Below, in pieces: positions 3,775 to 21,429 of a DNA stretch of 64,000 nucleotides (position 1 is the stretch's first letter; the number at the start of each line of letters is the position of its first letter). The notes beneath the pieces were generated by a model. It was not told the DNA's origin, ran no database searches, and saw only the letters and a list, made by a program, of their open reading frames with translations. Source of the DNA: Planctomycetota bacterium (GTDB lineage Bacteria; Planctomycetota; Phycisphaerae; UBA1845; UTPLA1); contig JACRIM010000056.1 of the NCBI GenBank assembly GCA_016235815.1, positions 1 through 64,000 of the forward strand, given 5' to 3'. Both the position numbers and the translations under genes were made by a program.

Positions 3775-3813
3775 CGCCCGTCGGTCGAAAGACCGGCGGG
3801 CGTCGTTTTTTTT
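3775..3813 (+). terminator. Intrinsic terminator of the lipoprotein gene
   Basis: CGCCCGTCGGTC pairs with GACCGGCGGGCG around a GAAA tetraloop and is followed by a run of eight T after GTCG. The hairpin also lies directly after the stop codon of the converging minus-strand gene, where it could protect that mRNA's 3' end. Confidence 0.9.
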
Positions 3814-5284
3814 ACGGGGCGGTGAGCAGCGCGACGAAGTTGGAAACGTCCAACCCGTCAATCGCCAGGTCGCCGTTCAGATCGGCCTGTTGAATATCGC
3901 AGCCGGGATGGGCCAGCGCGTACCCCGTTGCGTCGAGTGCGGCGGTCACAAAGGCGTCCACGTCGAGAACGTCCGTCGCACAGTCGCAATTCATGTCGCC
4001 GGGGATCGGTGCATCGGTGCCGGCAATCACATATACGAGGTTCCCATTCGCCGCAGAGCAGAGGAAATCCAACGCGCAGTCGCCATTCACATCGCCAACG
4101 CCCACGGCGTCGAATCCAAGTTGCGAGCCGGCAATGGTATGCGTGAAGGAACGAAGCAGGCTGCCATCGGCCCCCGAGCGCACTTCAATTCGTCCGGCGT
4201 TCGCGCCGCCCAGGGCACTCGTGTAGAGACCGAGGATCACATCCTCGCGGCCATCGCGATTGACATCGCCCGCGCCACGCCCAGGGCCGAGGCCGGAGGC
4301 GAATGGTCCAATGAACGTCCGCACGATCGCGCCGCTGGCCCCCGAATAAATGTAGGCCTTGCCCGATGCGCCACCGTTGGTGGTGTCGCCATAATCGCCG
4401 ACAAAGAGATCGCGTCCGCCATCGCCATCCACATCACCCAGCCCCGCAACAAAGAAGGTGCCGAAGGTGGAGCTGAACGGCGCGTTCGGCGCCAGTGCGG
4501 GCAAGAGCACTGAGCCATCAAGCCCGGAATAAACATAGGCGCGTCCCAAGGGCGCGGGTCCGGCGCCCGGAGCCCCAACAATGAGGTCCGACTTTCCGTC
4601 ACCGTTGATATCCCCGGCATTGGCCAGTCCCGAACCGAAGAGCGCAGTGGACGCGCCCAGGTGCGTGCGAATCACTGCGCCCGTGAGTCCTGAATACACA
4701 TAGACCTTCCCGGCATTCGTTCCCCCTGCGTCATTCAGCGGCGCACCAACCGCGACATCCCCTCGGCCATCGCCGTCGACATCGCCCGCGCCCGACACCG
4801 CCGCCCCGAAGTTGTCGCCAAGCGCCTCGCCGTCGAAATGCCGGAGGATGGCACCGGTGGCGCCGGAATACACCCGCGCGCGTCCCGCGCCATCGATCGG
4901 ACCGCCCGCGATGATGTCGTGGACAGTATCGCCGTCGACATCCCCCGCATCGGCGATCGCATAGCCGATCTGCCAGTCGCGTGCGACGCCGGTGAATGTG
5001 TGTAGCAGTGCCCCGGTGCGACCCGAGCGAACGGTCACTTTGCCGACGCGGCGTGGATTCCCTCCGAATCCCGGCGCCCCGATGATCAAATCTGTAACGC
5101 CGTCCGCATCGATGTCGTGCAATTCGGAAACGGCCCATCCAAACGTTCCAGTGTCGGTCAACGTTTGAAGAATCGTAACCCCCGGCTCGACAAACTGAGC
5201 CACGGCGGGCCGACAAGCGAGCACGAGCAAAATGAACGCAGTGCAAACAGAATGCGTTACGCGAGGACTATTTCGAGACGGCAT
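3812..5284 (-). CDS. Secreted FG-GAP/integrin-alpha-like repeat protein with dockerin-like tail
   Basis: 490 residues from the ATG at 5284, which has a GGGAG ribosome binding site about nine bases upstream; an ATG eight codons earlier lacks one. A signal peptide ends near AVA|Q. The body consists of about seven repeats with the calcium-binding FG-GAP pattern DxDGDGxxDxxxGAP alternating with YSGxxGxxxR.. segments, as in integrin alpha propellers. The C-terminus has two dockerin-like loops (GDMNCDCATDVLDVDAFV and DLNGDLAIDGLDVSNFV). The stop codon abuts the shared terminator hairpin. Probably an exported surface or matrix protein; no catalytic residues seen. Confidence 0.88.
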   Translation of the reverse strand: MPSRNSPRVTHSVCTAFILLVLACRPAVAQFVEPGVTILQTLTDTGTFGWAVSELHDIDADGVTDLIIGAPGFGGNPRRVGKVTVRSGRTGALLHTFTGVARDWQIGYAIADAGDVDGDTVHDIIAGGPIDGAGRARVYSGATGAILRHFDGEALGDNFGAAVSGAGDVDGDGRGDVAVGAPLNDAGGTNAGKVYVYSGLTGAVIRTHLGASTALFGSGLANAGDINGDGKSDLIVGAPGAGPAPLGRAYVYSGLDGSVLLPALAPNAPFSSTFGTFFVAGLGDVDGDGGRDLFVGDYGDTTNGGASGKAYIYSGASGAIVRTFIGPFASGLGPGRGAGDVNRDGREDVILGLYTSALGGANAGRIEVRSGADGSLLRSFTHTIAGSQLGFDAVGVGDVNGDCALDFLCSAANGNLVYVIAGTDAPIPGDMNCDCATDVLDVDAFVTAALDATGYALAHPGCDIQQADLNGDLAIDGLDVSNFVALLTAP

Positions 5285-5380
5285 GATCGATACGCTCCCA
5301 TGGCGCACCCGTCGAGGCAGGATGGCCCCGCACGGTGTTGCGCGTCTCTTATTGATACGAGGGGAATCAGGGAGCCACTA

Positions 5381-7828: not shown

Positions 7829-7862
7829 AAAACGCGGCCGACAGGGGGCTCCTGCCGGCCGC
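7829..7862 (-). terminator. Intrinsic terminator of the selenoprotein gene
   Basis: On the minus strand GCGGCCGGCAGG pairs with CCTGTCGGCCGC over 12 positions (one G-T) around a five-base loop and is followed by G and four T. It lies 31 bases after the stop codon at 7893. Confidence 0.75.
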
Positions 7863-7892
7863 GGTGAAGTGGTTACGCGTCGATGTCCCGAA

Positions 7893-8765
7893 CTATAGGC
7901 CGGCCAATTCGGCCTGCGCAGTCTGGGCATAGGTCGAATTGGGGAACTGCTCGATCACCTTTTTGTAGTATTTCGCGGCATCTTCGGACTTGCCACTCTT
8001 GGCCAGCATTCGAGCCGTTTGCAGCCAATCCTCGCACTTGGCTTTGGCCTCGCCTTCGGCCACCGATGCCATCATGGCCTTGTCGCCCTTGATTTTGGCG
8101 ACCTGGGCCTTGGCCTTCTTGCCGACGTCGGTGTCTTTGTACACCTTGGCGAGCTTCTCATATTCCTTCAACGCCTTGGCATACTCTTTCTTCTTGAAGA
8201 GGTCGTCGGCCTTGGCCAACGCGGTCTTGGCCGCGCCGGAGCCGAGCGGTTCGATGGCGACAGGCTTTTCGGGTTTCGCCTTCTTGGCCTCATCGATGGC
8301 GTCTTCGGCCTCTTCGGCACTGTGGCCCTTGTAGACAATTTCGCCGGCCCTATCCAGCACGAAGATCGTGGGATAGCCGCGGATGCCGAAGTCCTTGAAG
8401 GTCGACTTGGCGTCCATCCCGACGATGTAGTTGATTTTGTTCTTCTTGGCGAAGGGCTTGACGGTCTCCACCGGCTCATCCGAGAGGGCGACCAGCAGGA
8501 AGTCCTTGTCGTCAGCGTACTTGTTTTGCATCTCGACGAGATGCGGAATGCCTCGACGGCACGGACCTCACCACGTTGCCCAAAACTCGACCATCACCAC
8601 GCGACCCTTCAGGTCGCCCGCGCTCAGTCCCTTCATTCCCGCCGGAAGGTTCATCCATTCGGCGGCTTTGATCGCCGGGGCCTTGTCACCTTCCGCAGGC
8701 GCAGCCGACACCGTCGCCGCCGTTGCAGCGATCAGAGCCAGGGGAAGCCACGTTGCGTTGCGCAT
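7893..8765 (-). CDS. TlpA/thioredoxin-like selenoprotein with TPR-like tail
   Basis: 290 residues if the in-frame TGA at 8568-8570 is read as selenocysteine. The ATG at 8765 has an AGGAG eight bases upstream and starts a signal peptide (cleavage near VSA|AP). Residues 57-65 are VVMVEFWATW-like, the TGA falls exactly on the first Cys of WCGPC, giving W-U-G-P-C, and the frame continues RRGIPHLVEMQNKY, which is the normal thioredoxin-fold continuation. A cis-Pro motif (GYPTIFVLD) follows. Beyond it are Ala/Lys-rich helical hairpins of TPR type ending in YYKKVIEQFPNSTYAQ. It should act outside the cytoplasm in thiol redox exchange. A hairpin of bacterial SECIS type lies 23 bases after the TGA. 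The alternative is a nonsense mutation in a pseudogene, but both halves are intact and in one frame. Confidence 0.82.
8528..8544 (-). promoter_or_regulatory. Bacterial SECIS-like hairpin
   Basis: On the minus strand GCATCTC and GAGATGC form a perfect seven-pair stem around the loop GTC. It begins 23 bases after the TGA, placing the loop about 30 bases downstream with a G at its first position. Remembered bacterial SECIS rules ask for a loop some 16-37 bases after the UGA with a G among the first two loop bases; this fits. Confidence 0.65.
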
Positions 8766-9424
8766 ATCCCGTTCTCCTTTCTGTCTGTTGACGTTTCCTT
8801 GCGTTCACCGAGCAGTCGACTCGGCATCGAATCCTGAAAGACACCAATCGTCTGGCTCTGCTGCCTCGCCGATTGAGGTCGTATGGCTATTGTAACGCCC
8901 GATTTTGCCAGACCGTTCAGGGATTTCAAGGATTTTCAGGATACCGATCTGTTTTTGGGGGATGCGAGGCAGGCTATTGGGGTCGGGACGAATGTCGTGG
9001 AACGGGTCGCCGGAATGCCCACAGGCCGATGACGATAGCGGCAATAAGGAGTGAGATCTCCATGCCGGCCTCAACGGTCAACCAGGTTTCGTCGGAAACA
9101 TAGCCCGCCAGGCGGGTAAGTTGGTCCCATGGGACTGCCGGCATTGCCATGGCCGGTACATCGGGTCACAAAGAACCCGGTTTTACGTACGAATGACTGA
9201 CCGCTGCGACTCCAACCCGGTGTAATGGACTGGCGATGCCAGGTTGGGAAATTGCGCCCAAGAATCTGTGACGCAATTGGGCAATATCCCCCAAACGGGA
9301 CGTTTGACGGTGTGTGCTCGGTCATGGCAAAGAATTCTAATTGCCTCGCAATCGCACGTAACGCCATAATTGTCAATGAGTTATGGCCAGCCACCGCTCA
9401 AGAGACAAACCACCTTGCTCGATC

Positions 9425-9647: not shown

Positions 9648-12600
9648 CTATTTCGCGATGGTCTGTGGCGGCGCGACGGTCGGCGACTCCGTGCGATCTG
9701 AAGCCGGAACATCCGGGCGAACCGGCGCCGGCGGCAGTGTCTCCGTTTCATTCAGCACATCCTTGAGCCACGCATTCAGTTTCTGATTTCGTTGAACGAT
9801 TTCTCCGAGTGAGCCTTTGGCGAACGGGATCGGTTCGACCTCGGGCTTCCGGGGAATCACCTTTTGCACCGGAGTCGTCGTGCGCCGCTTCGCCGTCGGC
9901 ATCGACGCCGCGCCGTCCGTGCCCGTGGCCGCAAGTCGCGGTGTGGCCAGCGCATCCCGTAGTGCATCAATCTCCTTCGGCACGACTCGGCAAAGCTCGT
10001 CAGCACTGGTGAGCCGTTGGCGAATGCGATCCACCTTCGTGTCAATGGCGGAGTACAACTGTCGAATCACCGCGACCAATTGCGCGACGCGCTGCGTATG
10101 CTGCCGCAGCAACTCGGACGTTTGCGTCGCCGTCGCGTTGGCCGCCTCGATGGTGCGCGTTTCACGAACGGCACGGGCCTCGGCGGCGGTAAGGTGCTTG
10201 ACGATGCGCGATGTCTTTTGACACAGATCGGAGAGCGACGCGGCGTTTTCCGCAGCGCGCTCGATGATCGTGGTCGGCAGATTCAATGCGGCCTCTGCCT
10301 TTTGTCTGGCTGCTTCGGCGGTGGAAAGGATCTTTTCCGCCCGATCCTCGGCGCGGCCGTTTGCGTCCGTCGCGGCGTTTAACGCCGCCAAGGCCTTTGC
10401 CGAGTGTGCCTCGATTTCGAGTCGGTGCGCGGATACTTCACTCAGGATTGTGCGGGCGTCCGCCAACACCGTGCGAGCCTGCGCCTCCACCCGACCGGCA
10501 GCCTCGGGCGCCTGCGCGAGGATCGAATTGGCATGTTCGAGAAGTGCCGTCGCCCCGGCCTGCACCTGTGCGAGCAGGCGTTCGGCGGTGGCCTGAGTCA
10601 TCGCGGCAGATTTTTCCGCCTGGGCAGCCACGATCGCCAGCCGTTGGTGTGCCTCAACCGCTTCCTTCCGGGATTGTTCGAGAATCCCAAGGACATCGGT
10701 GCGAGTTTCGTCGCCGGTCACGCGGATCTTCGCAATGTTCGCCTCCGTCGCACGATGCACTTCCTCGGCAAGGTTCGCGAGATCGACTCGGGCGTCTCCG
10801 GCTCGCGTTGTCATCTGCGCGAAAATATCGCCAAGCTGACGGACCGCGCCATCTCGTTCCTCGCGGATCGACTGAATGGATGCATCCGTCTGCGCCAGCA
10901 CGTTTCGCGCCTCGCGGGCAATGGTGCCGAGGCGATCGATCATGCCGACGGTGAACGCTTCCGCGGCGTCACGCGTGTTTCGCGCCTGCGCATCGGCGGC
11001 CGCCAGCGCATCGCCAAGTTCAGTGCGAATGGTCTTCGAGGTGTTCGCCGCATCAGTGGAAACCGTCGCGAGCTGCGACGTCGCATCGCCAAGCACCGTC
11101 GTCACCTGACGTGTGATGGCATCAACGTCGGCCCGCAGTCGCGTCGTTTCTTTTTCGTATTGCGTGTGGCACTCAATGAACTGCTGCTGCCAGACGCCCA
11201 GACGGTCCTCGAGTTTTCGCGACAGTGTTTCGGCCCGCGCTGCGGCGTTGTTGGACGCCTCAACAAGCCGCTGTGCAAAGGTGTCGGCCTCCGTCTTGAA
11301 CACATCCAGCTTGCGGCGTTGGGCGACTTCAACTTCGTTCGCCTTCTGATCGAGCGTTTCCCGGCTTCGACGAGCCAGTTCATCAAATTCCGCCCGTGCC
11401 TTCGTGATTCGTTTCTCGACGTCGTCCTGAAGCTTTCCGGCATCGCCCGTCACGGCCGACATCTTGCTCTGGAGCGAATCGATCGCCGGCGTGAGCGAGG
11501 CGATGGTGGCTTCAATGTTCGCTTTCATCTCCTCGACTCGCGCCCGGACGGCGCCGATCGCGGACTCCCCGTCGGCCGTCGCCTTTTTCCATGCGGCTGA
11601 AAGCTCGTCCATCCCCCGTGCGGCCTTGCCCTTCACGGCGGCGAGGATCGACTCGGCCTCCTCGCTGAAGCCCGCTCGCGCCGCCCGATACTCGCGAACC
11701 TCAAGTTCCACGGCCGATCGCGCGAGCTGCATCTGCTCCAGCGCCGTGGTGACTTCCTCTTTCCACTGTCGGCGCTGCTCAGTCAGTGGCGTGGCCTGCT
11801 GCATGATGAACTCATCGACCGTGGTCAATCGCTTATCGAGAGCGATGATCCGCTGCCGAAGCTGCTCGCCAAGCCCCTGCACCTGAAGCCGACTCTGCTC
11901 GAACTCGGCGCGCTGTCGCTCCACGAGGTCGGCGTTCCGGGCCGCGTAGGCCTCGCTCTGTGTTCGCACCTGTTCGAAAAGCTCTCCGAATTGTTCGAGA
12001 AGCGAGGACTTCTCGCGCTGGAATTCGGCACGCCCCGCATCGGTGTGCGAGCGAATCTGCTCCACCATGTCGCGCGTCTCGCGCGACGTCGCCTCAGCCT
12101 GTTTGAGCATCTCCGCCGATTGGGCCCGCACTTGTCGCGCGGTCTGCAACCCCGCCTGCTCATCGGCGGCCAATTCGGCAATGCGCGCTTCCTTGCGTTC
12201 GATGTAATCGCGCACCTCGGTCATGAGCCGGGCCGCTTCATCGCGCATGGCGGCGAGCGCGGCCTGTGTCTCATTAACCGAACGATTCGTTCGCTCGTCG
12301 ACGCGCGAAGTCTGCGAACGCAATTGCTCCAAGTGTTCCTGAATCTGCCGCCGTGACAACTCGCGGTCGGCTCGCAGGTCATCAAGGACCGAGGCCGCCT
12401 CGGCCCGGAACTGATTTACTTCCCTGGAACTTCGACGCGCGCCGGTCCCTTCATCCGTTTTTTCTCGTAACTCCGCCTTAAGCATGGCAATTGACTGCAA
12501 CGCGAGGTCCAGGCGCGCGGAAAGTTCCGCATACGGCCGATCAGGTTCGGCGCCACGCGGCGACACATCGTGATGACCGCCCACGTCGGTGGTTGCTCCA

Positions 12601-13463
12601 ATGCCCAGTAGCGTGCGCACGTTGGGCGATTGCTCCGCTGCCGAAGCGGCCTTGAGCGATAACATCTGATCCACGGTCTCATTCACCATGGTCGCCGTGA
12701 TCGAGGTGATCGATTCCCCATAAGCCGCCAGGAGTGTGTTATCGCAAATCTGATTGATTAGGCGCGGTACTCCCTGCGAATGCTGATAGACCGCGTCAAT
12801 CGCCGCCGGCTCAAAGATGCGAGAAGGATCGGTCACTCCCCCGACGGCCAGTCGATGCGCGATGTAGGCTGCCGTCAGTTCCGGCGTCAGCGCTTTCAAA
12901 TGAAACGTGCGAAACACCCGTTGATAGAGCTGTCGCATGTCCGGCCTGCGGAAAACCTGCTGCAACTCCGGCTGCCCCAGAATGAGCACCTGCAACAGTT
13001 TGGCATCATCCGCCTCCAGATTGCCGAGCATCCGTAACTCTTCAAACGCCTCGGCCGGCAGATTCTGAGCCTCATCAAGCACCACCACCGACAGCCGATC
13101 CTTGGCGTATTGTTCGAGCAAGAACTCCTCAACCGCCCGGGCAAGCTGGGCGTGCGTCGCGTTGTCAGCGATCTCAATTTCAAACTCGCGACAGATTGCA
13201 ATCAGCAGTTCGCGACCATCAAGTCGCGTATTCGTGACGACCGCCGTCTTCGCGCCGGCCGGCAATCGGCTCAGCAATATCCGACTCAACAGCGTCTTGC
13301 CGGAACCGACCTCACCGGTGACCAGCACGAATCCCTTTCGCTCCTGGGCGGCATAAATCAGCGACGCCAATGCCTCTTCATGATCGGGCGTGTTGAAAAA
13401 GAAGCGCGGGTCAGGGGTGTTGTTAAAGGGCAGCGTCTTGAGGCCGAAGGTTTCGCAATACAT
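9648..13463 (-). CDS. ExeA-like AAA ATPase fused to a very long coiled coil
   Basis: 1271 residues from the ATG at 13463 (GGAG seven bases upstream; reads MYCETFGLKTLPFNNTPDPR, the family's usual start). Residues 1-~300 are an ExeA/general-secretion-A type AAA+ ATPase with Walker A GEVGSGKT, Walker B VVVLDEAQNL and the sensor-like QPELQQVF. Such ATPases accompany exosortase (PEP-CTERM/XrtA) exopolysaccharide loci. Residues ~330-1200 are an almost unbroken Ala/Glu/Arg/Gln-rich coiled coil, rare for this family whose members I recall as about 270-400 residues. The C-terminus is basic then proline-rich. It is divergent from the exopolysaccharide operon, so it probably belongs to it, perhaps as a cytoplasmic or envelope scaffold powered by the ATPase. 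No transmembrane segment is evident. Confidence 0.88.
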   Translation of the reverse strand: MYCETFGLKTLPFNNTPDPRFFFNTPDHEEALASLIYAAQERKGFVLVTGEVGSGKTLLSRILLSRLPAGAKTAVVTNTRLDGRELLIAICREFEIEIADNATHAQLARAVEEFLLEQYAKDRLSVVVLDEAQNLPAEAFEELRMLGNLEADDAKLLQVLILGQPELQQVFRRPDMRQLYQRVFRTFHLKALTPELTAAYIAHRLAVGGVTDPSRIFEPAAIDAVYQHSQGVPRLINQICDNTLLAAYGESITSITATMVNETVDQMLSLKAASAAEQSPNVRTLLGIGATTDVGGHHDVSPRGAEPDRPYAELSARLDLALQSIAMLKAELREKTDEGTGARRSSREVNQFRAEAASVLDDLRADRELSRRQIQEHLEQLRSQTSRVDERTNRSVNETQAALAAMRDEAARLMTEVRDYIERKEARIAELAADEQAGLQTARQVRAQSAEMLKQAEATSRETRDMVEQIRSHTDAGRAEFQREKSSLLEQFGELFEQVRTQSEAYAARNADLVERQRAEFEQSRLQVQGLGEQLRQRIIALDKRLTTVDEFIMQQATPLTEQRRQWKEEVTTALEQMQLARSAVELEVREYRAARAGFSEEAESILAAVKGKAARGMDELSAAWKKATADGESAIGAVRARVEEMKANIEATIASLTPAIDSLQSKMSAVTGDAGKLQDDVEKRITKARAEFDELARRSRETLDQKANEVEVAQRRKLDVFKTEADTFAQRLVEASNNAAARAETLSRKLEDRLGVWQQQFIECHTQYEKETTRLRADVDAITRQVTTVLGDATSQLATVSTDAANTSKTIRTELGDALAAADAQARNTRDAAEAFTVGMIDRLGTIAREARNVLAQTDASIQSIREERDGAVRQLGDIFAQMTTRAGDARVDLANLAEEVHRATEANIAKIRVTGDETRTDVLGILEQSRKEAVEAHQRLAIVAAQAEKSAAMTQATAERLLAQVQAGATALLEHANSILAQAPEAAGRVEAQARTVLADARTILSEVSAHRLEIEAHSAKALAALNAATDANGRAEDRAEKILSTAEAARQKAEAALNLPTTIIERAAENAASLSDLCQKTSRIVKHLTAAEARAVRETRTIEAANATATQTSELLRQHTQRVAQLVAVIRQLYSAIDTKVDRIRQRLTSADELCRVVPKEIDALRDALATPRLAATGTDGAASMPTAKRRTTTPVQKVIPRKPEVEPIPFAKGSLGEIVQRNQKLNAWLKDVLNETETLPPAPVRPDVPASDRTESPTVAPPQTIAK

Positions 13464-13785
13464 GTCGCGCTCCGAGAGGATGAGTTCGTGACCGCGCCGC
13501 CGACTCGGGCGAAGCAATGGCGCAGCGCGGGCGCACGAACATGCGTTCTCAATGGTTGGTTATCGGAATAGGCGGAAAGCCCGCTTTATGGGGCGTGCGA
13601 TTTCCGCGGATCAGGCGTAAGTGGCCGAAAATGAATGGCGCCCAACCTCGAAAACCAATGAGGTCACCCGGCGCATCGTACAATCGGCAAGAATTGCCGG
13701 TCGCCCATTTCGGTCGCAAGCACCCTCACCTAACGACTCAGAATAACCCGCGAGAACTCGTAAGTTCAGCCCGGGTGGGTCCATC

Positions 13786-13830
13786 CCGATAAAGCCGACG
13801 AGCAACGCCGCTGAACACGTCGGCTATCGG
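13786..13830 (+). promoter_or_regulatory. Leader hairpin of the exopolysaccharide operon
   Basis: CCGAT and AGCCGACG (two-base bulge between) pair with CGTCGGCT and ATCGG, a 13-pair stem with a 17-base loop ending 38 bases before the start codon at 13869. Two smaller hairpins precede it: CGGCAA-GAA-TTGCCG at 13685-13699 and GAACT-CGTA-AGTTC at 13754-13767. No T-run follows. I could not match it to the c-di-GMP riboswitch consensus. The 13464-13868 gap is the divergent control region for the ATPase and the operon and shows no gene. Confidence 0.4.
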
Positions 13831-13868
13831 CCGGAGTCTGGCGGCGATCAGTTTCAGGACGCAAGACC

Positions 13869-14648
13869 ATGAACGTGATCGGACGAACAAAACTCACGAG
13901 CAAAACCAGGCGAGTCGTGACGGCGGCCTTGCTCGTCGGAACGATTCTCGCGAGTGGCTGCGGCCCGTCGGATCACGAGATCAACTCCTTCATTCACTCA
14001 AAGGATGCGTCGGTGTCGGCGGTTGAATACGTCGTGCAGCCCCCCGATGTGTTGGACATCAGTTCCTCTCAGGCGGTGGAAATCGACGGTGAATCGCAGA
14101 CGATTCGACAGGATGGCAAGATCACCCTGCGGCTGCTCGGTGAAGTCAAAGTCGCCGGTCTGACGCCGACCGAGATCGCTCAGAAGCTCGAAGGCCTGCT
14201 CGCCCGCTACTATCAGAATCCGAAAGTCAACGTTCGCGTGACCGGCACCAACTCGAAACAGTATTATGTGTTCGGAGACAACACCGTCATGCGCGAGGGC
14301 GTGTACTCCTATACGGGTCGCGACACCCTGCTCAACGCGCTCGCCCTGGCCCAGCCAAACAGGTTTGCCTGGAAGGGCAAGATCAAGTTGATTCGCCCCG
14401 CCAAGGACTCGGCGGAACGCCATGTGATGACGATCGACGCCGATCGCCTCATTCAGGGCGGCAAGACGGATCAGAACGTACTCTTGCAGGAAGGCGACAT
14501 CATTTACGTCCCGGCGACGCCGTGGTCGTGGCTTGGAATGCGAATCTCGGAGTTCCTGTACCCGGTACAGGCGACGGGCCAGACCGTGGCGCAACCGGTC
14601 GTCATTCGGGATTCAGCGGAGCAATACGACTCATCGGGTCGGCGATAA
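13869..14648 (+). CDS. Polysaccharide export lipoprotein (Wza-like)
   Basis: 259 residues with a lipoprotein signal (LLVGTILASGC, Cys at about 36). Residues ~55-130 form the polysaccharide-export domain (EYVVQPPDVLDI, then GKITLRLLGEVKVAGLTPTE and LARYYQNPKVNVRV), and ~135-225 an SLBB-like domain (YYVFGDNTVMREGVYSYTGR, LLQEGDIIYVP). It should form the outer-membrane or periplasmic export channel for the locus polysaccharide. First gene of a co-directional run; the chain-length gene follows 26 bases later. Shorter than E. coli Wza, as usual for exosortase-type loci. Confidence 0.92.
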   Translation: MNVIGRTKLTSKTRRVVTAALLVGTILASGCGPSDHEINSFIHSKDASVSAVEYVVQPPDVLDISSSQAVEIDGESQTIRQDGKITLRLLGEVKVAGLTPTEIAQKLEGLLARYYQNPKVNVRVTGTNSKQYYVFGDNTVMREGVYSYTGRDTLLNALALAQPNRFAWKGKIKLIRPAKDSAERHVMTIDADRLIQGGKTDQNVLLQEGDIIYVPATPWSWLGMRISEFLYPVQATGQTVAQPVVIRDSAEQYDSSGRR

Positions 14649-14674
14649 GCGAATGCGCGGTCGGAGAACGAGAC

Positions 14675-16372
14675 ATGCATCATCATCACTTTGACGAATT
14701 CTCCGTAACGGATATTCGCCACACGCTTGGGGAAGTGTGGCGCGTCGTGCGCGACCGCCGGTGGTATTTTCTCCTCCCGTTCCTCGGAATGTCCACGGCC
14801 GCGATGATCGCTTCACTGTGGATTCCGCGGCAATGGACTGTCAGCACCATCATTCGACGCGAACACGACCCCATTCTCGCCAGCATGATGGGCCGAAGCT
14901 GGACCGAACCCTACACCGAGATTCGCCAGCGAATGCAGGGCGACCTCGCCGACCCCGAAATGATCGAGAAAACGCTCGCCCAGTGCGGCTTGCCGAACAA
15001 GGTGGAGCAATTTGCAAATGGCGAATTGACCCCCGGCGGACAGGCGGCGCGCCAGCAATTGGCAAACGAAGTAGCAAAAGGCCTCGTGGTGAAGCCGATT
15101 GAGACATCACCCAATCGGGACGTCGTGTCAATTCGCCTGACATTGAGCGACGCGGCGGCGGCGACCGAAACCCTCCGCACCCTGCGCGACAGCTACATTC
15201 GCAAAACGCAGAAACGCACAACCGACATTTTGCGAAGCGTCGAGTCCTTCTTCCAGAAGGAATCGAGCCGCTGCCGCGAACAGGCCGACGCCTTTCAGAA
15301 GCAACTTCTCGAAATGGAAGTCGCTTACCCCGGCATCAACCCCGACGCCACCGACCCGTCAAAGGCCGAAGCCGCCTCGCTGTCCGTTGAAAACGCCCAG
15401 TTCGCCCGTCAGTTGGACGAGTTGCGACAGGAACAATCGCAACTCGCCGACGCCCGCGCCGCCGCGCTTGCGGAGCCAGGCTCCATGGAACCCGACGGTG
15501 TGGAAGAGCCGAACCCCGAATACGCCGCGCTGGTTAGCGAGATCGAATCATTGCAGAAGGACATCGTCGAAGCCCGCATGAAAAAGGGCATGACCGATCT
15601 GCACCCCGACGTGTTGCGAATGACCTCCGCGCTCACCGAAAAGCAGGAGCTGATCCAGCGCACGCCTCAGCACCTTCGACGGGCTGTATCGTCCACCGCC
15701 TCGCTCGCCCCGTCGTCGGCGATACAGAAAATCGAAAAACGCTCCGCCGAAATCGAAGCCAAGATCGCGACCCTACAACATCGCATCACGCAGAATCAGG
15801 AACGACTCGCCAGGATCGAACGCACTCACGCCGCCATGATCGAGCAGCGCGGGAATTACGCGAAGCTGAAGGACCGCCTGGCCCGAACGAATGAGGAGCT
15901 TTCAACCTGGCAGGCCAACCTCGGCCCCATCAAGCACATCCTGACGCTCGAAGACTCCAATCGCGGCATCCACTTCGCGACCGTCCGCGATGTCGAGCCG
16001 GCCGTCCGACCGAGCGCCCCCGATCCGCGGCTCGTGATGGGAATCTGTCTCGCCATCGGCGCGGCGGTTGGCGTGGTCGTCGTATTGCTCACCGAACTGC
16101 TCGACCGGTCATTCCGGACCGCCCAAAGCGTGGCGACCACACTCGGCATCCCGCTGATCGAAAGCATTGACGAAATCATGACCGCCGCCACGCGAAAGCG
16201 GCAAATGGTTCGAAGCATGGTGGTCATGCCCGCCGTGGCTTTCACGCTCTCGCTGGGCCTGATGGTCGCCGGAGCCATGGCATACTTGAGCATTGATAAT
16301 CCCGGCGATTACGACGTTTTCAAGAAGTCGCCGCATCGCGTCTTCAGTTTGTTGCTCGGATCGAGTCGATAA
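14675..16372 (+). CDS. Chain-length determinant/GumC-like protein
   Basis: 565 residues. The ATG at 14675 is preferred to an in-frame start at 14522 because GGAG lies eight bases before it and the longer form would overlap the export gene. An unusual run of four His follows Met. One transmembrane helix lies at ~28-50, then a Wzz-type domain, a long coiled coil (~190-440) and a second helix at ~455-480 (GICLAIGAAVGVVVVLL), the normal polysaccharide co-polymerase topology. A third hydrophobic helix near ~530-552 is extra. It should set polymer length together with the CpsD-like ATPase just downstream; family resembles the PEP-CTERM-locus chain-length proteins. Confidence 0.9.
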   Translation: MHHHHFDEFSVTDIRHTLGEVWRVVRDRRWYFLLPFLGMSTAAMIASLWIPRQWTVSTIIRREHDPILASMMGRSWTEPYTEIRQRMQGDLADPEMIEKTLAQCGLPNKVEQFANGELTPGGQAARQQLANEVAKGLVVKPIETSPNRDVVSIRLTLSDAAAATETLRTLRDSYIRKTQKRTTDILRSVESFFQKESSRCREQADAFQKQLLEMEVAYPGINPDATDPSKAEAASLSVENAQFARQLDELRQEQSQLADARAAALAEPGSMEPDGVEEPNPEYAALVSEIESLQKDIVEARMKKGMTDLHPDVLRMTSALTEKQELIQRTPQHLRRAVSSTASLAPSSAIQKIEKRSAEIEAKIATLQHRITQNQERLARIERTHAAMIEQRGNYAKLKDRLARTNEELSTWQANLGPIKHILTLEDSNRGIHFATVRDVEPAVRPSAPDPRLVMGICLAIGAAVGVVVVLLTELLDRSFRTAQSVATTLGIPLIESIDEIMTAATRKRQMVRSMVVMPAVAFTLSLGLMVAGAMAYLSIDNPGDYDVFKKSPHRVFSLLLGSSR

Positions 16373-16384
16373 CGGATAAGGGAC

Positions 16385-17275
16385 ATGGGACGAATCGCAG
16401 ACGCAATTAAGAAGGCCGACGCCGAACGGAGAGAAAAACTCCGCGTCGGAGTGATCGGCGATGCCGGAACGGCGCGGTCAACGGCCGATCTGCGCGGTGC
16501 CTCCGCCCCGGCGCTGCTTGTTGCGCCTCCGCCGACAATCGAATCCCCGCGCAGTCGAAGCGCCATCACAGCCGAACCGTCGTCTCCGCTGAACTGGGAC
16601 GTGCACTCCTCCGTCGTCGCCATTCGCGATCGCACCGGCGCCATCACCGAACAATACCGCGCCGTGCGAACCTGGCTGCTCTCCCGGCTCACGCCCGGCG
16701 AGCGAAGCTGCATCGCGTTCACCAGCAGCGTCCCACGCGAAGGTAAGAGTGTCACGACCGCCAACCTCGCCGCCGTCCTCGCCGAGGTGCGCCACATGAG
16801 CGTCCTCGCAGTTGATTGCGACTTTAAGCAATCGTCGCTCGCGAAACTCTTCCAGCTTTCCCCCGGCCCCGGCCTCGCCGAGGTCCTTACCGGCAAGGCC
16901 CATCTGAACGAGGCCATTCGCTCAACGCCACTCGGCAACCTCAGCATCCTCCCGGCCGGCGACATCGGCGGCCAGAATACCAACGAACTCCTGCACTCGC
17001 GGATCACCAGCCGCGTCTTTGACGAAATCCGCGAGAGATACCACTTCGCCCTGGTCGATACACCTCCGGTGCAGCGATCGTCGGATGTCGGCGTGATCGG
17101 CACGCTCTGCACCGGCGTGATCATGGTCGTTCGGATGCACGAAACGGCAACCCACGTCGTGCGGCAGTCCGTGCGATGGCTGCAAACGAACAACCTCTCC
17201 GTCATGGGGTGCGTGGCAGCCGGCTGCCGTGGAAACGTGGATCGATACGCCTACGAGGCCGACGAGCGGGATTAG
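16385..17275 (+). CDS. CpsD/CapB-type tyrosine-kinase-like ATPase
   Basis: 296 residues, 12 bases after the chain-length gene. Walker A (SSVPREGKSVTTANLA; Arg replaces the usual Gly before EGKS), Walker A' (VLAVDCDFKQSSL) and Walker B (FALVDTPPV) mark a BY-kinase. The C-terminus (DRYAYEADERD) has two Tyr rather than the usual cluster, so autophosphorylation capacity is uncertain. N-terminal ~80 residues are a linker likely to dock on the chain-length protein. It matches the tyrosine-kinase homologue found in exosortase-type polysaccharide loci. Confidence 0.9.
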   Translation: MGRIADAIKKADAERREKLRVGVIGDAGTARSTADLRGASAPALLVAPPPTIESPRSRSAITAEPSSPLNWDVHSSVVAIRDRTGAITEQYRAVRTWLLSRLTPGERSCIAFTSSVPREGKSVTTANLAAVLAEVRHMSVLAVDCDFKQSSLAKLFQLSPGPGLAEVLTGKAHLNEAIRSTPLGNLSILPAGDIGGQNTNELLHSRITSRVFDEIRERYHFALVDTPPVQRSSDVGVIGTLCTGVIMVVRMHETATHVVRQSVRWLQTNNLSVMGCVAAGCRGNVDRYAYEADERD

Positions 17276-17319
17276 GAATCTCCTTCAGCCCGCGGTCCCA
17301 GGGCGGGCAAAGCGTCAAC

Positions 17320-18369
17320 ATGTCGAACCGGGACATTCAGATCACCAGCCTCGAGTCGATCGGCGACGACGCATGGAATGCGTACGCTTCATCGCGCCCC
17401 GATGCCACGCTCTTTCACGGACTCGCGTGGAAAGCCGCGGTTCAGGAATCCTTCGGCCATCGCCCGTGGTACTTGGTTGCGTTGCGCGACGGTGCAGTGG
17501 TTGGTGTGCTCCCGCTCTTTGAGATACAGAGTCTGTTCGCGGGCCGCTTTCTCTTAAGCGTTCCGTATGCGACGTACGGCGGCCCACTTTCGGATGACCC
17601 CGCTGTCTCGTCGGCATTGATCGAGCACACCAGGACGATTGCCATTCGCGTGCGCGCCTCGTGCGTCGAATTGCGATCGATGGAGCCGTCAATCGAAAAT
17701 CTTCCCCTTCGCGAGTCTCACGCCGCGTTCATTCGCACGCTTCCCTCGAATGCCGACGACGTACTCGCCATGATCCCGCGGAAAGCCCGCGCTGCGGCCC
17801 GTCGCTGCGAAGAACGCAACACCGTGTCGTTTGAAACCGGGCACGAGTTGGTCGCCGACGTCTGGGACTTGTACTCCCGCTCCATGCGGCGCCTCGGTTC
17901 GCCGAACTACCCGTTGCGTTTCTTCACATCGCTGCTCGAAAGACTTGGTGACAACGCCGCGGCACAGGTCGTCCGCCACGAAGGCCGCCCGGTCGCCGGC
18001 CTGCTCAGCTTCGTCCACCGAAAAACGGCCATGCCTTATTTCGTCGGCGTCGACGAACGCGCCGACCTCTACGGCCTGACCAACTACCTCTACTGGCAAA
18101 ACATGCGCTTCGCCGTCCAGCGCGGCTGCGACACCTACGACTTCGGCCGGACGCGCATCGACAACACCGGCCCCTTCGAGTTCAAACGCTCCTTCGGCTT
18201 CGAACCGCGATTGCTGGGCTATCAAACGCTGGTCATGCCCGGCCATCGCGCCCCGGACTTGGCGCCAGGCTCCCCAAAATGGGCGGCCGCGCGCCGCGCC
18301 TGGACGCACTTACCCCTTCCCGTCACGCGCCCACTCGGAGCCTGGCTGTCGAAATCAATCCCCGGCTGA
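17320..18369 (+). CDS. FemAB-like acyl/aminoacyltransferase, exosortase-locus type
   Basis: 349 residues from the ATG at 17320; a longer frame from 17176 overlaps the kinase gene and is unlikely. The GNAT-like FemAB fold is suggested by WKAAVQESFGHRPWYLVALR near the start, PYATYGGPLSDD, and the C-terminal half with GRPVAGLLSFVHR, PYFVGVDERADLYGLTNYLYW and YDFGRTRIDNTGPFEFKRSF. These are hallmarks of the PEP-CTERM/XrtA-associated FemAB subgroup as I recall it. It probably modifies a polysaccharide or lipid intermediate; the substrate is unknown. Same operon as the kinase, 44 bases apart. Confidence 0.88.
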   Translation: MSNRDIQITSLESIGDDAWNAYASSRPDATLFHGLAWKAAVQESFGHRPWYLVALRDGAVVGVLPLFEIQSLFAGRFLLSVPYATYGGPLSDDPAVSSALIEHTRTIAIRVRASCVELRSMEPSIENLPLRESHAAFIRTLPSNADDVLAMIPRKARAAARRCEERNTVSFETGHELVADVWDLYSRSMRRLGSPNYPLRFFTSLLERLGDNAAAQVVRHEGRPVAGLLSFVHRKTAMPYFVGVDERADLYGLTNYLYWQNMRFAVQRGCDTYDFGRTRIDNTGPFEFKRSFGFEPRLLGYQTLVMPGHRAPDLAPGSPKWAAARRAWTHLPLPVTRPLGAWLSKSIPG

Positions 18370-18409
18370 CGAAAAGCTTGATAGCCAAAGGATGCCGAAT
18401 GGCAAAGTG

Positions 18410-18432
18410 GGGCGGGCCTCCGTGCCCGCCTG
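18410..18432. repeat. Palindromic intergenic element
   Basis: GGCGGGC-CTCCGT-GCCCGCC forms a seven-pair hairpin without a T-run between the FemAB and glycosyltransferase genes. It resembles dispersed palindromes common in planctomycete intergenic DNA; only one copy is in the window. Confidence 0.4.
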
Positions 18433-18473
18433 AGATGTAATCTGATCAAAAACCAGACCCCTTGTCACAAAAC

Positions 18474-19793
18474 ATGGACCCCCAACAAACCATCCTCTAT
18501 CTCGCCCATCGGCTTCCATATCCGCCGAACAAGGGCGACCGCATTCGCACCTACCACCAACTCGACTATCTTGCGAAACGGCACCGAGTCTGGTGCGCCT
18601 GCTTCTCCGATGACGCCGACGATGCCAAACACATCGCGTATTTGAAAGAAGCATGCGACGAGGTCGCGATCATTCCATGGTCGCGAGGAAAAGCAGCAGG
18701 GCGCGCGCTGCGGGCATGGTCCACCGGAACCTGCGCGACACTGGCGGCATACCGAGACCGCCGAATGTTCGACCTCATGGAGTCTTGGTCGCGGCGCGTT
18801 CAGTTCGACGCGGTCGCCGCGTTCTCCGCATGCATGGCGCCATACGCACTCGCCGCCCGCGCATCCCGTCGCCTGCTCGATCTCTGCGACGTGGACAGCC
18901 AGAAATGGACCGAATACGCAGAGTCCCGTCGTGGGCCGGCGGCGTGGTTTTGGCGCGCCGAAGCCAAGCGCCTGCGGGCCTATGAAGAGCAATCCCTTGG
19001 CCTGTTTGATGCCATCACCGTAATAACGAATCGCGAGCGAAGTCTCCTCGACCATCACGAATTGTCATATCGCCTGCACGTCGTCGGCAATGGTGTGACC
19101 ATGCCCGCGGCCCCGGCGCGACCCGCGTCCTCGCTCGGTCCACGCCTTGGTTTCGTCGGCGCGATGGACTATCCGCCCAACGTCGAAGCAGTCCAGTGGT
19201 TTGTCGCAAACGCCTGGCCGCGCATTCGCAAGGCGATTCCTCTCGCACAGTTCGTCATCATCGGTCGCAATCCCACACGCTCGGTCAGGCGGCTCGCCAA
19301 GACTCCCGGCGTGGAATTGACAGGGACGGTGAACGACGTCGCCGCATTCATTCAGGATTGCCGCGTGATCGTCGCGCCATTGCGCGTCGCCCGCGGTTTG
19401 CAGAACAAGATCCTCGAAGCCATGTCCCTTGCGCGGCCCGTCATCGCCACAACAGCGTCGGCTTATGCACTCCACGCCGAAGCCGGGCGCGACATCGTCG
19501 TTGCGGACCGCGCCGATGACTTTGCCGCCAAATCGATTCAACTACTCCGCGAAAACGCGCTGTGCGACCTCTTCGCAAATGCCGGTCGTGCCTGCATCGA
19601 GCGCCACCATTCGTGGGAGCAGATTCTGCGCGACTACGAGCGACTCTTGCTCGGTTCGCCCGCGCCGCGATGCCATCTCATCAGTGGGGCAGTGGGAACC
19701 GCACGGCCCGGTCGTCGAATGCCCCTCGCACCGCTTGTAAGTGGGTTTGCTTGCGGCGAATCAACGCGCAAAGTCGGCCGTTTTGTCTCATAA
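18474..19793 (+). CDS. Glycosyltransferase, TIGR03087/Stp1-like, exosortase-locus type
   Basis: 439 residues from the ATG at 18474; a TTG four codons earlier is possible. The start ILYLAHRLPYPPNKGDRIRT and LLDLCDVDSQKW are signatures I associate with the sugar transferases (Stp1) of PEP-CTERM polysaccharide loci. The C-terminal half is GT-B/GT4-like (LGFVGAMDYPPNVEAVQWF, PLRVARGLQNKILEAMSLAR). It should add a sugar from a nucleotide donor to the lipid-linked repeat. The last ~50 residues (after ERLLLG) look low in conservation. Confidence 0.88.
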   Translation: MDPQQTILYLAHRLPYPPNKGDRIRTYHQLDYLAKRHRVWCACFSDDADDAKHIAYLKEACDEVAIIPWSRGKAAGRALRAWSTGTCATLAAYRDRRMFDLMESWSRRVQFDAVAAFSACMAPYALAARASRRLLDLCDVDSQKWTEYAESRRGPAAWFWRAEAKRLRAYEEQSLGLFDAITVITNRERSLLDHHELSYRLHVVGNGVTMPAAPARPASSLGPRLGFVGAMDYPPNVEAVQWFVANAWPRIRKAIPLAQFVIIGRNPTRSVRRLAKTPGVELTGTVNDVAAFIQDCRVIVAPLRVARGLQNKILEAMSLARPVIATTASAYALHAEAGRDIVVADRADDFAAKSIQLLRENALCDLFANAGRACIERHHSWEQILRDYERLLLGSPAPRCHLISGAVGTARPGRRMPLAPLVSGFACGESTRKVGRFVS

Positions 19794-19902
19794 TCTCCGC
19801 GCCTAACTCACCCTGATCTCATTTCAGTTGCGATAAACCCCGTTCGATACATGACATGGCGATGGGATATGGGACGGATCCCGGCGCATCGCCTGCGCGC
19901 GG

Positions 19903-21429
19903 ATGGAGCCGGCAGTGTTTCAAGGAACCGAGAGTCACGCTTCCAGCGGGCCTGCCGTGGCCGTGGCTCCGTGCAGCGCCGTTGCGGCGTCACGTCGCAG
20001 CCCGGTGCCCTCGTCGTCCATCAACGACGACTTCGTCGACCGCGTAAGCTTGGACGAGCGCCGCGTCCTCATTATCGCAAGCCGATTTCCACCCGTCGCC
20101 TCGGTCGGCGCCATTCGCGTCCGAAAGTTCGCCAAATACCTCAGCCGCCACGGCTGGAAGCCCTTCGTCATCACCGGCGCAATGCGGCACACCTCCGGCT
20201 CTTCGCAGGATGTCCGCCGCGCCGCCGATCTCCAAAGCCTCTCCGACATCCCGGTGGACACCGTCGTCCAACGACTTAATCCCTTGATGGATTACTGGCC
20301 CGGCCCGGTCGCCCGGACGCTGTCGAAGCAACTGTCACGCGCTACGTCGTGGTTCGGGTGGGATGCACATCACTGGCAGGCCGCGCTCACCTGGCGCTTC
20401 AAGCACGTGTACGAAGCGCTTTCATTCCCCGATCGTGGAATCTGGCGATTGCCGGAGGCGGTACGCACGGCGGTGCAGCTCCATCGAAAATATCGCTTCG
20501 ATGCCGTATTCACCTCCGGCATGCCGTTCTCGGATCACCTGGTCGGCCTCGCCGTGCATTCAATCTTCCGCCTTCCCTGGCTCGTGGATTTCCGCGACCC
20601 CTGGGCCGAATATATTCACTGGCGACAATGGGATTCATCGCTCGGTCACCGGCTCACCCAAACGGCCGAAGCCGCGGTAATTCACCGCGCCACCCACGTC
20701 ATCAGCGTCAACGACACAATGACCGCGCGATTTGTGGATCGTTACGGCGATCCGACCGGCCGCAAGTTTGTCACCATTGCCAACGGCTTCGATCCAACCG
20801 ACTTTGCCTCCGTCCCCCGACCCGCGCCATCCTCTGAGTTCAAATTGCTTTATGCCGGTTCGCTTTACGGAAAGCGAAGCCCGCTCGTTGCCATCGAAGG
20901 TTTTCGGCGCTTCGTCAGTGAAACACCGGGTGCGGATAAACGCGCCCGTTTCGATTTTGCCGGCCGTCCCGGCCCGTTCGTCTCGGAGCTAAGCAACCCG
21001 ATCGATGAAGGCCGCGTGCGCTATCTTGGCATGTTGCCGCACGCCGAGACGCTCGCTCGCATGGCCGCTGCAGACGTAAACGTCGTCCTTCTTCCCAACA
21101 TGCCCGGCGGCATGTCAGACACGACGGCAAAGGTCTACGAATGTCTTGGCAGTGGTCGCGCAATCCTGGCGGCCGTGCCTTCGGATGGCGCCGCTGCGAG
21201 AGAGTTGCGCGGTTTCGAAGGCGTCTGGGGTTGCGATCCCGATGACCCCGCCGCCATCGCCCGCGCCTTGAGCGACATGTACCGTCGCTGGCTCACCGGC
21301 GATCTGCACGCCCAGCGCAGTGCCGTCCAACTCTATCCAAAGACGCGCCCCTATCAGGCGCGACAACTTGCGGAACTACTAAACGCCGCGACGCGCCATC
21401 GCCGCGCGGCCAAAGCGAGGAACAAATGA
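19903..21429 (+). CDS. GT4-type glycosyltransferase
   Basis: 508 residues. The first ~45 residues are low-complexity and the true start may be later, just before RRVLIIASRFPPVASVGAIR, which is the usual GT4 start with a glycine-poor loop. WLVDFRDPWAEYIHWRQ, ANGFDPTDF, LLYAGSLYGKRSP and KVYECLGSGRAILA are donor-domain hallmarks of GT-B family 4 enzymes. Likely a cytoplasmic, membrane-associated step of the polysaccharide repeat unit. Its stop overlaps the deacetylase start (ATGA), showing translational coupling. Confidence 0.85.
   Translation: MEPAVFQGTESHASSGPAVAVAPCSAVAASRRSPVPSSSINDDFVDRVSLDERRVLIIASRFPPVASVGAIRVRKFAKYLSRHGWKPFVITGAMRHTSGSSQDVRRAADLQSLSDIPVDTVVQRLNPLMDYWPGPVARTLSKQLSRATSWFGWDAHHWQAALTWRFKHVYEALSFPDRGIWRLPEAVRTAVQLHRKYRFDAVFTSGMPFSDHLVGLAVHSIFRLPWLVDFRDPWAEYIHWRQWDSSLGHRLTQTAEAAVIHRATHVISVNDTMTARFVDRYGDPTGRKFVTIANGFDPTDFASVPRPAPSSEFKLLYAGSLYGKRSPLVAIEGFRRFVSETPGADKRARFDFAGRPGPFVSELSNPIDEGRVRYLGMLPHAETLARMAAADVNVVLLPNMPGGMSDTTAKVYECLGSGRAILAAVPSDGAAARELRGFEGVWGCDPDDPAAIARALSDMYRRWLTGDLHAQRSAVQLYPKTRPYQARQLAELLNAATRHRRAAKARNK

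Follow-up and report, generated by a model that had tools for sequence, protein, structure and literature searches.

Reading Frame and Features of the Locus

The window (the whole stretch of 64,000 nucleotides analyzed, from a Planctomycetota genome) carries on its minus strand a frame of 290 codons, 8765–7893, whose sole interruption is a TGA at 8568–8570 (residue 66). The translation of 7893–8765 begins MRNATWL, runs through MVEFWATW to the TGA, resumes with GPCRRGIPHLVEM, and ends in AELAGL. The TGA falls exactly on the first Cys of a WATWCGPC motif (context FWATW-TGA-GPCRRGIPHL) and is followed by 224 codons before a TAG at 7893–7895. The initial annotation had described one minus-strand frame, uninterrupted except for a TGA on the first redox Cys, and ORF reading confirmed this. 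Its expectation that standard annotation would split the gene was also borne out, as mechanical ORF calling yields fragments of 65 (8568–8765) and 212 amino acids (7893–8531). The features of the locus are as follows.

7893–8765, minus strand: candidate TlpA/ResA-like gene with Sec; 290 codons when the TGA is translated as Sec, ending in TAG at 7893–7895
8568–8570, minus strand: in-frame TGA, putative Sec66, position 1 of the UGPC redox motif
8559–8561, minus strand: TGC for Cys69, the Cys that closes the UxxC motif; unchanged throughout alignment A2
8528–8544, minus strand: candidate bacterial SECIS hairpin; 7-bp stem, GUC loop at 8535–8537, spacing 30 nt, −8.1 kcal/mol
8700–8765, minus strand: signal-peptide-like N terminus, about residues 1–22; read by eye, all compared orthologues begin alike
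8280–8693, minus strand: thioredoxin-fold (TlpA/ResA-like) domain, residues 25–162; from Pfam and the predicted fold
7899–8240, minus strand: C-terminal TPR-like helical tail, residues 176–289; Pfam TPR_14, TPR_2, and TPR_6, six helices in the model
8772–8780, minus strand: Shine-Dalgarno-like AAAGGAGAA upstream of the ATG at 8763–8765; read by eye
7833–7863, minus strand: terminator-like hairpin plus TTTT just past the stop; weak, as the consensus scan found 2 versus 2.0 expected

A DNA pattern that includes the TGA, TGGGCNWSNTGGTGANNNCCNTGY (WA[TS]W-TGA-xPC type), matched once in the window and in none of 100 shuffles. A scan of the open frames in the rest of the window for TGA close to Cys revealed no further recognizable motif.

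Pfam assigned the protein to Redoxin (1.5e-19), as well as to AhpC-TSA and Thioredoxin. At the C terminus, TPR_14, TPR_2, and TPR_6 scored 33.1, 32.5, and 27 over gathering scores of 23.5, 27, and 26.3, respectively. The AlphaFold2 model (22-row alignment; mean pLDDT 91.3, pTM 0.75) has a ResA/TlpA-like thioredoxin domain that extends to about residue 162, and residues 176–289 contain six helices. The best solved folds, in a search that covered mostly residues 20–166, were DsbE-like 3gl3, ResA, Etrx2, and DipZ (Z about 17–18). Pro132, the cis-Pro, is invariant in alignment A2. The protein therefore has the redoxin/thioredoxin fold, the WxxWCxxC-type motif, and the cis-Pro by which a TlpA/ResA-like protein is recognized. 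The TPR-like tail proposed in the initial annotation is supported by the three Pfam families and by the predicted fold. The accompanying remark that such a tail is uncommon on a Sec thioredoxin did not hold, since a long C-terminal tail proved common among the planctomycete Sec-TlpA genes examined.

The genes flanking seven orthologous loci, out to about 3 kb, include no shared redox gene, and the context therefore gives no substrate. GNAT- and DinB-looking ORFs, recognized by eye, recur near two or three of the seven. Adjoining the gene in the window, positions 9648–20000 resemble, by eye, an exopolysaccharide or secretion cluster, with an ExeA-type ATPase ORF bearing a very long coiled-coil tail (9648–13517), polysaccharide export and chain-length proteins (13869–17275), and glycosyltransferases. 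ORFs at 360–2669 and 3812–5308 (minus strand) look like secreted repeat proteins with WNG..W and FG-GAP-like repeats, and both end in dockerin-like GDMNCD motifs (also by eye).

A Candidate SECIS Hairpin Downstream of the TGA

The bSECIS model describes a loop of 3–9 nt on a stem of 4–16 bp with a stability of at most −7.5 kcal/mol, a G within the first two nucleotides of the loop (mostly N1-G-[G/U]-N-N2), and a UGA-to-loop spacing of 16–37 nt (PMC13188914). The hairpin at 8544–8528, GCAUCUC-GUC-GAGAUGC, has a 3-nt loop with G first and then U, a 7-bp stem, a spacing of 30 nt, and a predicted stability of −8.1 kcal/mol, in agreement with all four published criteria. The 48-nt stretch that starts at the TGA folds at −18.1 kcal/mol (z = −2.9 versus dinucleotide shuffles). 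Rfam at gathering thresholds gave no match in the window. The suggestion that a G-loop hairpin lies at bacterial SECIS distance thus agrees with the published rules, which were applied as a script in simplified form, with no bulges allowed.

The script passed all eight Sec genes of the same family and no Cys homologue among 43; when the family's Sec genes were recoded synonymously, 4% of the recodings passed. Of 27 Sec genes from other parts of the phylum and order, 17 passed under the same simplified, bulge-free rules. Several clear Sec-TlpA genes (L107, L120, L121, L124, and others) have no hairpin that fits these simple rules; they may carry either bulged stems or another class of SECIS. 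Measured against synonymous recodings, the stretch that follows the Sec codon has a higher stability in the family's Sec genes (mean z = −1.75) than in Cys genes, where it hardly departs from the recodings (mean z = −0.25; p = 1e-4 for the difference). Across eight sequences, 94.6% of the cells of the stem are paired, and compensatory changes occur at two pairs (U-A/C-G/A-U at one, G-C/C-G at the other). The covariation score was reached by only 1 of 500 shuffles, and every slid register scored far lower, a result that comes from eight sequences and from a coding stem whose changes are also constrained by the protein.

Selenocysteine Machinery of the Genome

The genome that contains the window (G000) is a 4.58 Mb draft in 60 contigs and is 95% complete. 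Profile searches located selB (C29:83776, 309 bits, cut-off 242) with selA adjoining it (C29:85743, 535 bits, over its cut-off), and selD on another contig (C21:11582, 378 bits). A tRNA-Sec with anticodon tca (UCA) lies at C45:146068 (67.6 bits). All four genes that the initial annotation proposed to look for, selA, selB, selC, and selD, are consequently present. Few of 14 control genomes rose over the cut-offs (selB in two, selA in one, selD in two), which indicates that the matches to selA, selB, and selD are specific. The selD gene has an in-frame TGA of its own, between NCAG and AGK (L018 1531–1533, G000:C21), at its redox site, which is the usual Sec site of SelD. Both selA and selB were over cut-off in 16 of 17 genomes of the same family. 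The exception, G004, is a draft 75% complete that carries a Sec-form gene and has neither selA nor selB over cut-off.

Sec and Cys Orthologues in the Family and the Phylum

TGA occupies the same codon in eight further copies from seven other genomes or MAGs, and the reading frame and about 220 codons downstream of it are preserved. Seven copies come from genomes of the same family: L021 and L074 (both G007), L022 (G001), L023 (G015), L027 (G008, with UAPC), L029 (G004), and L030 (G003). The eighth, L050, comes from Planctomycetota MAG PLA2 and is a near-copy, identical around the codon to the G015 sequence. Four other orthologues (L024, L025, L026, and L028) have TGC or TGT at codon 66 and no stop. 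Comparison of homologues, which the initial annotation had proposed, thus finds TGA or Cys at this one redox position. Because 16 of the 17 family genomes exceed the selA and selB cut-offs, the Cys orthologues sit in genomes that have retained the Sec machinery. To explain a tree of 28 rows, at least three Sec/Cys changes are needed, of which well-supported branches force at least two; their direction is not readable from the tree. The window's genome also encodes at least one TlpA-like paralogue with Cys (C15:109490), so the Sec form is not its sole TlpA-like protein.

To judge from sequence, relatives of the Sec-TlpA protein are scattered through much of Planctomycetota. The WATWUGPC-type DNA pattern occurred in 64 of 392 evenly drawn Planctomycetota genomes and in 11 of 114 genomes of the order, with no match in the reversed control of either set. 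Six of the pattern loci (L085, L108, L109, L110, L111, and L116) are not thioredoxins in frame, and 64 of 392 is therefore slightly high. The remaining loci fetched are thioredoxin-like, many with 220–290 codons after Sec (f1, f28, f45, f55, f69, and f73). Of the genomes with the strict WATWUGPC pattern, which number 53 by hand count, 51 have selA, versus 242 of 392 overall (Fisher p = 6e-10, with genomes treated without correction for shared ancestry). The two that lack it, G325 and G445, are drafts 77% and 82% complete.

Some genomes, such as G264 and G339, have two or three WATW-TGA-xPC genes, so selenoproteins may be plentiful in several members of the phylum. A looser WxxxUxxC pattern, run over the whole of the window's genome, gave 135 matches versus 42 for its reversed control and lacked the specificity needed to list further selenoproteins. 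A second Sec-TlpA layout, in which a long N-terminal extension precedes a C-terminal Sec thioredoxin domain (L100, L087, L088, L099, and L104), belongs to other planctomycete families. When plasmids were searched by tblastn, only distant, partial TlpA-like matches were returned.

Interpretation of the In-Frame TGA

We regard it as very nearly certain, on the sequence data, that the locus encodes a TlpA/ResA-like thiol-disulfide oxidoreductase, predicted to be exported, with the active site Sec66-Gly-Pro-Cys69, the UGA being read as Sec. The TGA orthologues, the Sec machinery, and the bSECIS-type hairpin all favor the thioredoxin-fold selenoprotein proposed initially. A stop in an otherwise Cys-coding gene, whether genuine or an artefact (a nonsense mutation, a pseudogene, or a sequencing error), would need one substitution only, from TGC or TGT to TGA; the window comes from a draft in 60 contigs, and Cys forms exist within the same family. 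The independent TGA orthologues, which keep the frame and about 220 codons beyond it in seven other genomes or MAGs, refute such a stop in practice. Furthermore, the hairpin accompanies the TGA genes and is absent from the Cys genes, and the pattern recurs across the phylum without a match in the reversed control. We consider a stop at this codon very unlikely.

The frame that stays open after the TGA would also be expected if a variant code assigned the codon to another amino acid (e.g., TGA = Trp) or if it were passed by readthrough that needs no signal. However, the redox motif would not survive a Trp in front of GPC, the genome encodes tRNA-Sec, SelA, SelB, and SelD, and the TGA lies at the Cys position in all Sec-form relatives, so that a variant code or signal-less readthrough is extremely improbable. 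We find it just as hard to credit that the locus makes two separate proteins, a secreted peptide of 65 residues and a 212-residue protein starting from the ATG at 8529–8531. Both ORFs exist mechanically, but the split would cut the predicted thioredoxin fold at the active-site helix, a signal peptide is missing from the second ORF, and the Cys orthologues are single proteins.

The simple account is that an exported enzyme of TlpA/ResA type has Sec where the attacking Cys would otherwise be, and the steps of this account as far as the mRNA signal are supported by the sequence evidence above. SelB would bring Sec-tRNA(UCA) to the ribosome through the hairpin at 8528–8544, 30 nt downstream, acting as a bacterial SECIS, and the UGA at 8568–8570 would be translated as selenocysteine. 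The protein would then be secreted. The Sec66/Cys69 pair may cycle between reduced and selenenylsulfide forms and in doing so reduce, or exchange, disulfides or oxidized partners. The TPR-like tail most likely docks a partner.

Since standard annotation would truncate or split such genes, planctomycete proteomes as annotated probably lack a set of exported redox enzymes. A single bacterial family with both Sec and Cys orthologues, nearly all of whose members have Sec machinery, offers a natural comparison for the contribution of Sec to an enzyme of the TlpA type.

Comparison with Known Systems

Earlier evidence of Sec use by planctomycetes concerns two isolates from algal blades and a few others (PMC4807772); selA in 242 of 392 sampled genomes points to wider use of selenium in Planctomycetota than the literature searched states. 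Descriptions of a TPR-tailed Sec-TlpA family were not found in that literature, with most subscription literature outside the search. The odds seem to us evenly balanced that these proteins form a distinct, phylum-wide Planctomycetota family so far without a description in the literature searched, in which an exported Sec-TlpA carries a C-terminal TPR-like tail, Sec and Cys have exchanged more than once, and the Sec machinery is kept.

The solved structures of ResA, CcmG-DsbE, and TlpA (e.g., PDB 3gl3 and 1st9) share the fold and the position of the CxxC motif (Z about 17–18). They differ in using Cys, and the matched chains consist of the thioredoxin domain only, without the TPR-like tail. 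Another related model, the ResA-like WAxxUGC protein (NCBIfam NF041054, WAxxUGC_long), is ResA-like and, by its name, contains Sec. The match spans residues 6–281 but scores 45.3 bits versus a curated cut-off of 300, and the gene here has UGPC instead of UGC, which places it outside that family.

Among UxxC thioredoxin-like selenoproteins, the Trx-like 1 group of the GOS marine set (COG0526, UxxC) comprises 321 sequences (PMC2398784). These are marine reads; the sections drawn on here describe no TPR tail, and the text does not mention Planctomycetes. Table 1 of the prokaryotic selenoproteome lists thiol-disulfide isomerase-like (cd02966, UxxC) and redoxin (PF08534, UxxC) entries (PMC13188914). 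Compared by table entries, the protein shares with the TlpA-like members the thioredoxin-fold domain and Sec as the first residue of UxxC; the table names no TPR-tailed form, and Planctomycetes go unmentioned in the paper. TlpA-like UxxC Sec proteins are thus already known as a kind, and the protein described here joins them.
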